A stretch of 64,000 nt of DNA from Marisediminicola senii (GTDB lineage: Bacteria; Actinomycetota; Actinomycetes; Actinomycetales; Microbacteriaceae). Position numbers and translations under genes: made by a program. Below are positions 3-4,155 of the stretch, one piece after another. Numbering within the stretch: the first letter of the stretch is position 1; each line of letters starts with the position of its first letter. The stretch covers positions 186,001 to 250,000 of the forward strand of contig NZ_JAALGE010000001.1 of assembly GCF_011057645.1 (NCBI RefSeq), in the 5' to 3' direction. The notes beneath the pieces are model-generated. The model worked only from the letters and a program-made list of their open reading frames with translations. It did not search any database and was not told the origin of the DNA.

Positions 3-215
3 GCCATCGTCAGCGGGTTCGGGTTCGTCGTCAGTTCCCTCATGCTCTACGTGCTCGCCGACCGGATGGGCTTCGACCCGATCCTCATCAAGGTGCTCTC
101 CCTTCCCGTCGTGCTCGTCGTGCAGTTCTTCCTCAACAGCCGCATCACCTTCGCAACCCGAACACCCGATACAGCGATTACCCCAGAGCCGCTGTCGCAA
201 AGGAGCACAGTATGA
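3..215 (+). CDS. GtrA-family membrane protein, C-terminal part
   Basis: The visible 70 residues are the end of a small multi-pass membrane protein; the start lies left of the window. Two hydrophobic segments can be seen, and the second runs into FFLNSRITF, the polar N-x-x-x-TF tail typical of GtrA proteins. The family is thought to flip or move polyprenyl-linked sugars for envelope glycosylation. Its TGA overlaps the next ATG (ATGA), and the AGGAG ribosome-binding site of the next gene lies inside this frame, so the two genes are probably co-translated. The family call rests on the C-terminus only. Confidence 0.75.
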   Translation, partial: AIVSGFGFVVSSLMLYVLADRMGFDPILIKVLSLPVVLVVQFFLNSRITFATRTPDTAITPEPLSQRSTV

Positions 216-1663
216 CCGAGACACGCATCACCCCGACCGTCGCCGTGGTGGGAGGAGGCTTCACCGGCCTCACCGCCGCATACGAGCTCGCCAAGCAGGG
301 CTACTCGGTCGACGTGTACGAAGCCGCACCGCAGGTGGGCGGGCTCGTCGCCGGATTCACCCTCGACGACGGGTTCCCGCTCGAGAAGGCGTACCACTTT
401 CTCTACACGACCGACAACCACATCATCGACATGGCCAAGGAACTCGGCGTCGACGACAAGCTCGACTTTCACCCGAGCTCCATCAAGGCGTTCTACAAGG
501 GCGAGAAGTACGGCTTCACCACGCCGCTCGAGCTGCTCTCGTTCACGCCCCTGTCGTTCATCAACCGGGTGCGCACCGGCGTCACCGGCCTCGTGCTTCT
601 GCGGCTCAAGAACTGGAAGCCGCTGACCACCATCACGGCCTACGACTGGCTGTGCAAGGTCAACGGCAAGAAGGCCACCGACCTGGTCTGGAAGCCGCTG
701 CTGCAGGGCAAGTTCGACATCTACTGGGACAAGATCACCATGGCATGGCTGTGGACCCGCATCCACGTGCGCCAGACCTCGAAGATCAAGGGCGAGCGCA
801 CCGAACGCCTCGGCTACTTCAACGGCGGATTCCGCATCGTCGTCGACCGCTGGCTGCAGGAACTCGAGAAGCGCGACGCCCGGGTCTATACGAGCTCGCA
901 GATCACCTCCTTCGACGAGAAGGACGGCAAGCCCATGATCACGGTCGGCGGAGAGCAGAAGCAGTACGACGCCGTGCTCGCCGCGCTGCCGAGCAACGCG
1001 TTCGCGCGCATCGCGGGTGACCACCCGTCGATGACGCCGACCTACCAGAAGCAGCTGCTCGACATCGACTACCTCGCTGCCGTGCTGCTGGTCGTCACCA
1101 CCACGAAGCCCATCACCGACACCTACTGGCACCAGATCCACGATTTGGATGCCCCGTTCCTGGTGTTCCTGAGCCTCGACAGCCTCATCGGCACCGAGAA
1201 CACGGGCGGGCGCTACATCTACTACATCGGCGACTACACCCAGAACGACAGCGAGCTGATGGGCCTCACCGACGACCAGATCCGTGAGCGCTGGTATGCC
1301 GGCGCGAACCGCCTGTTCCCGGAGTTCAGCGAGGACATCGTGGTCGAGTCGCACGTGTTCAAGTTCAAGAACGCGCAGCACATCGTCGACGTGACCTACG
1401 AGTCCCGCCTGCCGGAGATGCGCACCGACCTGCCCGGGTACTACCTCGCCAACTTCTCGCAGATTTTCCCCGAAGACCGCGGAACCAACTACGCGGTACG
1501 CGAGGGCCTCAAGGTCGCCGAGATGATCACGAAGGACCTCGGACGCGCCGGCCTGGCCATCGAGGACAGCTCATCGTCGGGCCTCACCATCGCCGACCTG
1601 GCCGCGGAGACCGCGGGCCTCGACAGCGACGGTAGCGACCGCCAGAAGGGTCTCGTCGGCTGA
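212..1663 (+). CDS. FAD-dependent oxidoreductase (amine oxidase / protoporphyrinogen oxidase-like)
   Basis: A 483-residue flavoprotein. Residues 10-38 form the N-terminal Rossmann dinucleotide fold (VVGGGFTGLTAAYEL, ending in VYEA), followed by GGLVAGF, the second FAD contact of the amine-oxidase/HemY superfamily. Near the C-terminus YLANFSQIFPEDRG and the downstream helix form the usual closing FAD segment. There is no signal peptide, so it is cytosolic. It starts at the ATG coupled to the GtrA-type gene, with AGGAG upstream. Flavoenzymes of this type next to GtrA genes are often found in envelope polysaccharide loci, so a role in polyprenyl-sugar or glycan modification is inferred. The substrate cannot be read from sequence. 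A strong hairpin follows. Confidence 0.85.
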   Translation: MTETRITPTVAVVGGGFTGLTAAYELAKQGYSVDVYEAAPQVGGLVAGFTLDDGFPLEKAYHFLYTTDNHIIDMAKELGVDDKLDFHPSSIKAFYKGEKYGFTTPLELLSFTPLSFINRVRTGVTGLVLLRLKNWKPLTTITAYDWLCKVNGKKATDLVWKPLLQGKFDIYWDKITMAWLWTRIHVRQTSKIKGERTERLGYFNGGFRIVVDRWLQELEKRDARVYTSSQITSFDEKDGKPMITVGGEQKQYDAVLAALPSNAFARIAGDHPSMTPTYQKQLLDIDYLAAVLLVVTTTKPITDTYWHQIHDLDAPFLVFLSLDSLIGTENTGGRYIYYIGDYTQNDSELMGLTDDQIRERWYAGANRLFPEFSEDIVVESHVFKFKNAQHIVDVTYESRLPEMRTDLPGYYLANFSQIFPEDRGTNYAVREGLKVAEMITKDLGRAGLAIEDSSSSGLTIADLAAETAGLDSDGSDRQKGLVG

Positions 1664-1732: not shown

Positions 1733-2953
1733 CTACTCGCCGCCGAACGCCGACAGCTCGGCCTCGTACGAGTCCGCGTAGACGCCGCTCTCGTTGCCGT
1801 CCCAGTAGTGGTGCGCCTCGTACCTGAAGTTGTCGGCCGGGTCGTCGATCCAGCCGTCGGGGTGGTTCGTCGACCAGCGGGCGAGGCTCGAGTAGTCGTA
1901 GCCGCCGACCATGACCAGCGTTTCGTCTCCGCTCTCGCGGATGGCCGTGAGCACCTCCTGCGACACGTCTTCCCACAGGCCGGCCGCGGCCTGCTGGTCA
2001 CCCTCGAAGCCGAACGGCTCGTTCATCAGGCCGTACGCCAGCAGTGCCGGGTGGTCGCCGAACTCGGCCGCGAGCTTGAGCCATACGTCGGACAGCGCGC
2101 TCGCGGGCAGGGCATCGGTGCCCACCTGCAGCTCGCCGGATTCGGTGGCGTACTTGCCGTAGTTGTGCAGGTCGAGCACGACGTCGACGCCGTTCGCCTC
2201 GGCGGCATCCAGCGCGTCGCGCACCAGGGCCACGTCCTCCGGTCGGAGGTCGCCGTACGGTTCGGCCTGCAGGCGCTCCCACATCACCGGGAGCCGCACC
2301 AGGTCGACGCCCCGGTCGGCGAGGAACGAATACGACGCGGCAGGCTCGTCGAAGTAGGTCTGGCCGAGAACACCGGGGGCGACGTTGCTGTATCCGTCAC
2401 CGGTGCCGAAGTCGAGGCCGGAGAGGTTGACGCCGACCCGGACATCGGTGGATGCCGCGAACTCCTCGACCACGGAGGCCTGGGGCCCCGCGGCGTCGAG
2501 ACCGCTGAGCCGCTCACCGCCGTAGACGGTGAGCGGGTAGTCGTCCGACCAGCTGCTGCCCGCCGCCCACGTGGTCGACCAGAGGCCCTTGTCTTCGGCC
2601 ACGGTGTACCACTTCTCGGCGAGGGCGTTCCAGGCGTCGGCATCCACCTCGTTCTTCGGCCACCCCATCTCGCCGACGAATGCGGTCGCGCCGTTGTCGT
2701 CGAGCCACTCCGAGTAGTCGAGCAGTTCGCCGATGCGCTGCTGTTCGAGGAGGTTGAGGTCGACTCCGTCGAGCGCCGACGGCGAGGGCGACGGCCTTCC
2801 GCTGGGATCGCTGCTCGCACCCGGCTGCTGCGGGCCATCCGGGCCGGCGTCGTTCTGGCCGAACACGATGACCGCGAGAATGACGGCCGCGACCAGCGCC
2901 ACGACAGCGGCGATGATGATGGCACGCCTGCGACGGCGCTTCGTGGTGTCCAT
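1733..2953 (-). CDS. Membrane-anchored GH5-type cellulase with circularly permuted domain
   Basis: A 406-residue protein. RRRRRR plus a hydrophobic stretch (residues 6-31) form an N-terminal membrane anchor, followed by a Ser/Pro-rich linker (45-60). The catalytic parts are those of GH5 but in the wrong order. The nucleophile motif FVGEMGWP (E95) and the final-strand motif TTWAAG...DYPL (128-141) come first. Then come strand 1 (VNLSG, 175), VRLPVMW (219), DLHNY (261), the acid/base motif MNEP (E312) and EAHHYWD (379-385), after which the chain stops. A normal GH5 would place the E95 and WAAG blocks after HHYW. Start: ATG preceded by AGGGGG; an upstream in-frame start would destroy the anchor topology. 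Probably a beta-glucanase facing outward. Confidence 0.8.
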   Translation of the reverse strand: MDTTKRRRRRAIIIAAVVALVAAVILAVIVFGQNDAGPDGPQQPGASSDPSGRPSPSPSALDGVDLNLLEQQRIGELLDYSEWLDDNGATAFVGEMGWPKNEVDADAWNALAEKWYTVAEDKGLWSTTWAAGSSWSDDYPLTVYGGERLSGLDAAGPQASVVEEFAASTDVRVGVNLSGLDFGTGDGYSNVAPGVLGQTYFDEPAASYSFLADRGVDLVRLPVMWERLQAEPYGDLRPEDVALVRDALDAAEANGVDVVLDLHNYGKYATESGELQVGTDALPASALSDVWLKLAAEFGDHPALLAYGLMNEPFGFEGDQQAAAGLWEDVSQEVLTAIRESGDETLVMVGGYDYSSLARWSTNHPDGWIDDPADNFRYEAHHYWDGNESGVYADSYEAELSAFGGE

Positions 2954-3156: not shown

Positions 3157-4155
3157 GTGAACTTCGCCTACCACCGCCTCGCCCGCTCCTGGCCGAAATA
3201 TCGCTGGTGGAAGGCCCTCGTCACTGGTCTCATCGCCGTCGCCCTGTACCTGGGATTCAGCATCGCCGCCGTCGTGGTGTTCATCGTTCTCTCCGTCGCG
3301 CTGCCCGACACGTTCGGGGCCAGCGTCGAGTCGATCGCGGCGGTGGAGCTCGACCTCTCCGACCCGATCGTCTTCTCGTTCGCGCTCGGGTCGATCGCGC
3401 TGATGCTGCCCTCGGTGCTCATCGCGGCGCTGATCATGGGACCACGGCCGCTCGGGTTGCTGTCGTCGGTCGAGGGACGCCTGCGCTGGGGATGGCTCGG
3501 ACGCTGCATCCCACCGGCCCTGGTCATCTACGGCGTAGTGTTCGCCGCATCGTTCCTGCTGGAGCCCGCAACCGGGGGAGAGGCCGCTCAGCCGGTGATC
3601 ACCGCCGCGACGTGGGCGCTCATCGTGTTGGCGCTCGTACTCACGCCCCTGCAGGCGACGGCGGAGGAGTACGTGTTCCGGGGATACCTGATGCAGGCCA
3701 TCGGCGGCTGGCTGAAGCATCCGGCCTGGGCGATCCTGCTGCCCGTTCCGCTGTTCGCCATCGGGCACGACTACGACGTCTGGGGGCTCCTCGACGTGTC
3801 GGTGTTCGGGGTGGTCGCCGCGTGGCTGACCTGGCGCACCGGAGGACTCGAGGCCGCGATCGTCGCGCATGTCGTGAACAACACCGCGCTGTTCCTGCTG
3901 GGGGCGGTCGGGCTGGTCGACATGAACGCCGACACCGGGTCTGCGGTCGGGCTGCTGTCGACCGTCGTGATCCTCGGCGCATATTCGTGGTGGGTGGTGC
4001 GCATGGCGAAGCGGACCGGCCTGCGCACCGAACGCACCATGCAGCCGGTGGAGGAACCCGCCGGTGCCCCTTACGGGCCCGCGCCGACCGGTGCTCCCCA
4101 GTACGCGCCGCTCGACGATCCGCCGTCACCGGCTCCTCGTACAGTAGGGTCATGA
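3157..4155 (+). CDS. CPBP family intramembrane metalloprotease
   Basis: A 332-residue membrane protein with about eight hydrophobic helices. It carries the CPBP/Abi signatures [11 protein letters not shown] (about residue 169; the glutamate pair and Arg are catalytic or structural), a His in the next helix (FAIGHDYD) and a late HVVNN motif. This family (type II CAAX protease/Rce1-like) cuts within membranes; bacterial substrates are mostly unknown. A hydrophilic Pro-rich tail of about 50 residues follows the last helix. It starts at GTG, with AAGGGGAGC about 15 bases upstream. Its TGA overlaps the recQ ATG (ATGA), so recQ is translationally coupled to it, an unusual pairing with no obvious functional link. 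Confidence 0.88.

Follow-up and report, generated by a model that had tools for sequence, protein, structure and literature searches.

A circularly permuted GH5 cellulase encoded beside a probable glycan-synthesis operon in Marisediminicola senii

We found that P0001, a protein encoded in the window (the 64,000-nucleotide stretch of Marisediminicola senii DNA analysed here), carries the two parts of a GH5 catalytic barrel in swapped order, and from its sequence the circular permutation is as good as certain. P0001 is probably a membrane-tethered endoglucanase that acts on a surface beta-1,4-glucan made by the products of neighbouring genes. GH5 ranks among the largest and most intensively studied families of cellulases. 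In the openly licensed PMC papers searched, we found no account of a GH5 barrel permuted in nature, an absence that is weak evidence, and where excerpts of GH5 and cellulase papers mentioned permutation, it concerned cited titles (a TOS1 glucanase, a CBM pair), engineering, GH70, MalS or phage genomes, and not GH5 enzymes.

Swapped order of the GH5 barrel in P0001

The gene is well inside its 341-kb contig, at 187.7-189.0 kb, and has the following layout.

1733..2953, minus strand: permuted GH5 protein P0001, 406 aa, a single open frame
2861..2953, minus strand: residues 1-31, Arg-rich start and hydrophobic helix, probable membrane anchor (AlphaFold2 helix 3-31)
2759..2860, minus strand: residues 32-65, Pro/Ser-rich linker (model confidence mostly low)
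2450..2758, minus strand: residues 66-168, N-block (Pfam profile 218-269; DSSP of the model)
2669..2671, minus strand: codon of E95, nucleophile position, in FVGEMGWP (invariant in 11 aligned rows; Glu in all 24 permuted proteins)
1736..2446, minus strand: residues 170-406, C-block (Pfam profile 23-205; VIA-align to 4lx4_D)
2018..2020, minus strand: codon of E312, acid/base position, in MNEP (invariant in 11 aligned rows; Glu in all 24 permuted proteins)

The N-block corresponds to canonical helix 6, strand 7 (with E95), helix 7, strand 8 (with W129) and helix 8, and the C-block to canonical strands 1-6, with the chain ending about 20 residues past strand 6. Residues 1-31 (MDTTKRRRRRAIIIAAVVALVAAVILAVIVF) probably anchor the protein in the membrane, as judged from the predicted helix and the sequence. 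Across residues 22-55 the pLDDT of the model is below 50. No domain other than Cellulase scored above the cut-off in a Pfam search of P0001.

Profile and pairwise comparisons both recovered the swapped order. PF00150 (Cellulase, 272 positions) matched P0001 with 119.3 bits against a curated cut-off of 23.5 (whole protein E 2.7e-34), and residues 204-393 were aligned with profile positions 23-205. When the N-terminal part was searched alone, residues 78-132 were aligned with positions 218-269 at an E value of 0.005, below the curated cut-off, so that the two blocks did not overlap on the profile. The best PDB matches by phmmer were 4lx4 (E 9.3e-44) and 5hpc, which is XacCel5A (E 2.6e-43). In 5hpc, query residues 173-391 matched chain residues 25-234 and query residues 77-166 matched 248-332 (i-Evalue of this second stretch 0.001), and in 4lx4 residues 174-394 matched 15-219 and residues 79-143 matched 236-296, the second stretch having an i-Evalue of only 2.2. 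The opposite arrangement was seen in canonical genes elsewhere in the window's family and order: in G034 (E 5.2e-7) and G054 (E 8.3e-9), the N-block match follows the C-block match within a single frame. Profile searches can make permuted GH5s look truncated, since the best Pfam stretch here covers only positions 23-205 of 272.

AlphaFold2 with an 11-row alignment gave a pLDDT of 81.5 and a pTM of 0.80 for the whole of P0001, and for residues 66-406 a pLDDT of 88.0 and a pTM of 0.89, with the strands in the chain order beta7, 8, 1, 2, 3, 4, 5, 6. The strands of the P0001 model are at residues 91-97, 125-129, 173-176, 218-223, 257-262, 304-308, 346-350 and 376-383, and two additional short strands appear at 267-276 in the whole-protein model. 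P0001 is thereby predicted to form the (beta/alpha)8 barrel of GH5, and a closed active barrel is very likely. Because its strand order is 7-8-1-2-3-4-5-6, and not 1-8 with the acid/base before the nucleophile as in canonical GH5, P0001 was classed as a permuted variant derived from GH5 rather than as an ordinary member.

Structure comparison by Foldseek and VIA-align, which keep chain order, superposed residues 165-405 of P0001 on the first two thirds of Cel5A enzymes, a partial match that the permutation predicts for sequential aligners. The VIA-align superposition of model residues 165-405 on 4lx4_D 5-228 had a Z score of 22.9 and an rmsd of 2.6 Å over 223 residues, and the shorter model (66-406) aligned to Cel5A with a Z score of 21.7. 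Among the 50 VIA-align rows listed, 17, to other GH5 enzymes, started at P0001 residue 88-123 and superposed strand 8 in a rotated register; strand 7 was superposed in one of them (4w84_B, from residue 88).

We suggest that a short linker would have joined the old N and C termini (3 residues lie between the profile matches in P0001), with the new chain ends placed after strand 6 and before helix 6. Synthesis would then start with strands 7-8 and go on to strands 1-6, and both parts would close one (beta/alpha)8 barrel. A failure of the N-block to fold onto the C-block of the same chain, with the barrel completed in trans by a domain-swapped dimer or left incomplete, is very improbable: the models are of single chains only, which leaves room for such an arrangement, whereas the single-chain pTM of 0.89 and the 3 residues between the block matches, which fit the adjacent termini of a canonical barrel, argue against it.

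Two other explanations of the block order were rejected. Truncated tandem GH5s in place of a single barrel do not fit blocks that lack profile overlap and a confident single-chain model, and a chance order does not fit permuted relatives that are colinear with P0001 in other genomes. The coordinates, strand and residue numbers of the original prediction, with E95 in FVGEMGWP and E312 in MNEP, were confirmed for a 406-residue frame on the minus strand; its N-terminal helix was recovered as a hydrophobic helix predicted by AlphaFold2. Its central claim, a permuted barrel made of two non-overlapping blocks that together are complete, is borne out by the profile mapping, the PDB alignments and two AlphaFold2 models with all eight strands. 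The conservation of the permuted form as a family, the exopolysaccharide-type locus, a further permuted GH5 in this genome and the copies in phages go beyond that prediction.

Eight positions, R220, H263, N311, E312, H381, Y383, E95 and W129, which we take to be the GH5 active-site set, were invariant in 11 aligned permuted proteins. The Glu after strand 4 (NEP) and the Glu on strand 7 are the acid/base and nucleophile of GH5, which are here E312 and E95, and E95 would act as the nucleophile and E312 as the acid/base. Both catalytic Glu residues were kept in all of the 24 permuted proteins found in bacteria, and the full set of eight in 18, the incomplete ones being L061, L063, L064, L067, L068 and L069. 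This conservation gives indirect support to P0001 being a working enzyme. In L067 (G804:C50:33240-34394), the active-site Arg, His and Asn are replaced (VAREHY), and this protein is perhaps inactive.

P0001 is nearest to the Cel5A/RBcel1/EG-II group. It resembles Cel5A, RBcel1, XacCel5A and EG-II, which we take to be subfamily GH5_5, in sequence, in the predicted barrel and in all eight active-site residues. It differs from the Cel5A group in having strands 7-8 and the nucleophile first, new ends between strand 6 and helix 6, and a predicted N-terminal membrane helix.

Distribution and origin of the permuted form

To class the loci, we used the order of two profiles, the N-block and the C-block of alignment A2. 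After C-block matches with E above 1e-10, those of fewer than 120 profile positions and identical sequences were left out, 64 distinct C-blocks were obtained, of which 24 were permuted, 31 were canonical and 9 had no detectable N-block. The permuted call for L065 rests on a weak N-block match (E 0.041). The 24 distinct permuted proteins comprised 23 from Actinomycetota, two of them in the window's genome, and one from a Saccharimonadia MAG. Permuted and unpermuted forms, which the original prediction had proposed to look for in related genomes, are thus both present.

In the family search (398 genomes), matches at E 1e-6 were found in 17 genomes, and four genomes besides the window's own were colinear over nearly the whole query with 51-53% identity. 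The order search (396 genomes) and the phylum search (396 genomes) matched 9 and 12 genomes, respectively, at E 1e-20, the window's genome included in each. The permuted form in the phylum sample was found in the window's own genome, G804, G826, G848, G864, G960, G971, G1012, G1042 and G1086; G943 and G1138 had partial GH5 genes and were left unclassed. The scan of named genomes gave 11 loci, of which one was a Stutzerimonas locus with two canonical genes and ten were permuted (five Demequina, a Homoserinimonas MAG, Microbacteriaceae bacterium PS02343, two actinobacterial bins and the Candidatus Saccharimonadia MAG). These named-genome loci overlap the other samples, several being identical in sequence, and L033 and L039 are those of G072 and G100 of the family search.

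Carriage was patchy. The permuted form was present in 5 of 44 genomes of one Demequina genus group, where a sixth match, G1161, had part of the C-block only and was left unclassed. In the window's own genus, none of the 5 genomes matched. In the Pseudomonadota sample, 13 of 249 genomes matched and none was permuted; those that could be classed were canonical, and L110 was without a detectable N-block. In the phylum of the Saccharimonadia MAG, 3 of 192 genomes matched and only the MAG itself was permuted, L101 and L102 having part of the C-block only. Nine plasmid records matched, none with 80% query coverage, and no permuted form was found among them.

The original prediction had named an assembly artefact as one finding that would overturn it, and permuted relatives from many assemblies contradict this. 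The one point in favour of an assembly or annotation artefact is that the assembly behind the window is a draft of 110 contigs. With the identical order recurring in 24 distinct proteins of bacteria, from many assemblies, and in six copies on viral contigs, this explanation has a negligible probability.

The permuted proteins share a common shape. The chain stops 1-14 residues past the C-block in 23 of 24, and in 16 of 24 no more than 4 residues separate the N-block match from the C-block match (3 in P0001; longest gap of all 36). The lone exception to the common chain end is the second copy of the window's genome, which continues into a linker and cell-wall-binding repeats. This divergent copy (G000:C11:60462-61556; L045:3736-7728, minus strand; 30% identity) is part of a protein of 1330 aa that has Pro/Thr linkers and matches CW_binding_2 three times.

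To trace the origin of the permutation, trees of permuted and canonical rows were built. Tree 1, with 52 bacterial rows (24 permuted and 28 canonical; of the 64 distinct C-blocks, the 9 without a detectable N-block and 3 of fewer than 195 residues were left out), needed 3 label changes, and holding the permuted rows together cost 11.3 log units (AU p 0.157). The tree without two long rows still needed 3 changes. Tree 2, to which 8 viral-contig rows were added (30 permuted, 30 canonical), needed 4 changes, with a cost of 24.7 log units (AU p 0.085). The permuted rows never formed one side of a branch in the bootstrap trees of the 52-row set, of the set without the long rows or of the set with viral rows, and the starred branches force only 1 change in each of the three trees. 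These trees neither reject a single origin nor decide between one and several; the common chain end in 23 of 24 proteins favours one origin.

Duplication and truncation is a plausible source of the permutation. Tandem GH5 cores were found in the Pseudomonadota sample (L109 and L111) and were rejected as direct intermediates, being far from the permuted rows in the tree. In excerpts of two papers, the GH70 glucansucrases are a natural circular permutation of the (beta/alpha)8 barrel relative to GH13 amylases, explained by duplication and terminal deletions (PMC4919382; PMC11046441). GH70, as described in those excerpts, is another family acting on alpha-glucans, and its chain starts at helix 3, whereas that of P0001 starts at helix 6. 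Natural rearrangements of glycoside hydrolases are also described in excerpts on the GH3 enzyme GlyA1 (PMC5104943) and on MalS of GH13_19 (PMC10223318); in these, as far as the excerpts go, the domain order is swapped, whereas in P0001 the cut is inside the catalytic barrel.

Gene neighbourhood and proposed role

A convergent operon with the order GT2 - GT39/GH8 - GtrA - FAD is located left of the P0001 gene and runs toward it. The first three genes are left of the window (L044 9774-14215).

L044 9774-11120: GT2 (PF13641 E 2.9e-35)
L044 11117-13726: PMT_2/GT39-like membrane protein with a C-terminal GH8 domain (PF01270 E 3.7e-31)
L044 13736-14215: GtrA
212..1663 (L044 14212-15663), plus strand: FAD-dependent oxidoreductase (Amino_oxidase), last gene of the convergent operon (profile match)

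Two gene pairs, GT2 with GT39-GH8 and GtrA with FAD, overlap at their stop and start codons. An additional GT2-GtrA gene was observed upstream of the operon. On the other side, a CAAX-type membrane protease gene (window 3157-4155, plus strand) is divergent from the P0001 gene, and no match to it was found beside the other GH5 loci searched. The window's genome also has a second, separate GT2 - GT39 - GH8 set (G000:C41:2102-8453; L095), with 30% (GT39) and 26% (GH8) identity to P0002; its GT2 and a sortase-like gene downstream were identified by reading of the sequence.

Gene-context analysis showed that a permuted GH5 adjoins GT2, GT39-GH8, GtrA and FAD genes in 10 loci, namely the window's own, five Demequina, three others from the window's family (PS02343, G164 and G362) and the Saccharimonadia MAG. 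In the MAG, the genes follow one another on one strand in the order GH5, GT2-GtrA, GT2, GT39-GH8, GtrA, FAD. Its copies are more distant, with identities of 48% for FAD, 53% for GT2 and 39% for GH5, and the GC content of the locus is 0.507, compared with 0.67 for the window region. This locus (L041/L166; G1155:C97), in a MAG of roughly 1 Mb, may reflect transfer from an actinobacterium, or misbinning. We found no description of such a putative surface-glycan locus in Demequina and its relatives in the narrow part of the literature looked at.

A nearly full-length GT39-GH8 was present in 9 of 10 permuted-GH5 genomes tested of the window's order. No GT39-GH8 match was found in MAG G072 (90% complete), although part of the FAD gene is present on the 6-kb contig that carries its GH5. 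Among permuted-GH5 genomes of the phylum's other families, 0 of 10 tested had a GT39-GH8 match at E 1e-10, a count that includes G1138, whose GH5 is partial and unclassified, and the permuted GH5s of actinobacterial families f25, f30, f32 and f34 were outside such an operon within the stretches examined. An exopolysaccharide role therefore cannot hold for the permuted GH5s in general.

Canonical GH5 genes adjoin related GT2, GT39 and GT2-GtrA genes (28-38% identity) in G431 (L087) and G054 (L088), which indicates that both topologies occur in comparable loci. A conserved permuted branch and unpermuted relatives in comparable loci together offer a clean test of the effects of permutation, with the permuted GH5s as test subjects for the folding, stability and tethering of a TIM-barrel enzyme.

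The GT2 protein matched cellulose synthase models weakly, all NCBIfam matches being below the cut-off, and the polymer therefore need not be cellulose. The nearest match of the GH8 domain is BcsZ (NCBIfam NF008305, E 9.1e-31, with 107 bits where the cut-off is 299; PDB 3qxq, E 8.2e-17). At the position of the Glu in TTSEGQ, which we take to be the GH8 general acid, the ten loci have T, L, L, L, L, D, M, M, E and G, that is, Glu in one of ten. Judged from its sequence, this domain (L044:12677-13726) is possibly a pseudoenzyme. The permuted GH5 is the hydrolase of the locus with a complete active site, and this is the main ground for the functional reading.

A catalytically altered look of the GH8 partner, together with a permuted homologue (L067) that has lost the active-site Arg, His and Asn, could also suggest that P0001 binds or transglycosylates the nascent glycan rather than hydrolysing it; the eight active-site positions are intact in P0001 and 10 aligned permuted relatives, and we regard this as improbable.

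The best reading is that P0001 has a role in finishing a surface beta-glucan, which rests on the gene neighbourhood. The N-terminal helix and the flexible linker would tether the enzyme to the outside of the membrane. There P0001 would hydrolyse or transglycosylate a beta-1,4-linked glucan that the GT2, GT39-GH8 and GtrA proteins would produce and export. A surface cellulose-like polymer might thereby be trimmed or released, as is thought for BcsZ and CslZ. BcsZ (GH8) is the hydrolase of bacterial cellulose operons, linked to a GT2 glycan synthase, and RBcel1 is part of a cellulose operon. Like BcsZ, P0001 is linked to a GT2, and its locus also encodes a BcsZ-like GH8 domain; unlike BcsZ, P0001 is a GH5, and the local GH8 is fused to a GT39-like membrane protein and is mostly without the acid Glu. 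Neither a GH8 nor a GH6 domain was found in P0001 by Pfam, so the likeness to BcsZ and CslZ is one of role and not of family. CslZ (GH6), of the Streptomyces cslA-glxA locus, is described in an excerpt as a membrane-associated glucanase encoded in the opposite orientation beside a cellulose-synthase-like operon (PMC9040799). In that excerpt, CslZ is a lipoprotein with the copper oxidase GlxA as partner, whereas the P0001 locus has the FAD protein.

P0001 might instead be a secreted cellulase that is ordinary except for its permutation and serves to feed on plant or algal beta-glucan, with incidental glycan-synthesis neighbours. Its nearest solved relatives are endoglucanases, carriage is patchy, as in the Demequina genus group, and other actinobacterial families carry permuted GH5s without the operon. 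We nevertheless consider this unlikely, given the tight GT2/GT39-GH8/GtrA/FAD synteny at nine loci within the order and also in the MAG from a different phylum, the probable membrane anchor and the lack of further Pfam domains above cut-off in P0001.

Permuted copies on viral contigs

Four scans of the viral contig set, classed by block order, gave six permuted genes on five contigs.

L120:2995-4029: permuted GH5 viral copy
L121:3025-4107: permuted GH5 viral copy
L124:1252-2343 and L124:2992-4518: two permuted GH5 viral copies
L132:6037-7188: permuted GH5 viral copy
L154:5599-6603: permuted GH5 viral copy

One copy is within a 1759-aa repeat-rich frame. PHROGs profiles identified phage hallmark genes nearby on four of the five contigs: portal and major head protein genes on the L120 contig, terminase large subunit and head protein genes on the L124 contig, a major head protein gene on the L132 contig, and, on L154, an endolysin/amidase gene and one for a protein with weaker matches, including to major tail proteins. 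The tested neighbour in L121 had no PHROGs match, and the five viral permuted proteins given to PHROGs matched no family at E 1e-3 or better. The viral permuted GH5s are candidate phage depolymerases, likely borne on the virion.

One possible, speculative scenario is that the permuted GH5 arose once and spread through actinobacteria and phages, the bacterium finishing its own beta-glucan coat and the phage depolymerase stripping such coats. The permutation may suit N-terminal tethering, with the N terminus away from the substrate groove. In tree 2, the second copy of the window's genome groups weakly (90/70) with the phage pair of L124, and a phage origin of that copy is a lead only.

Among named phages (5 and 3 records for two queries), no match with 80% query coverage and no permuted form was found, and record MT835628 has the canonical order. 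The other viral-contig relatives that could be classed were mostly canonical. The viral GH5 relatives L137, L139, L142, L143, L148 and L158 have the canonical order with roughly 200-250 residues between the blocks.
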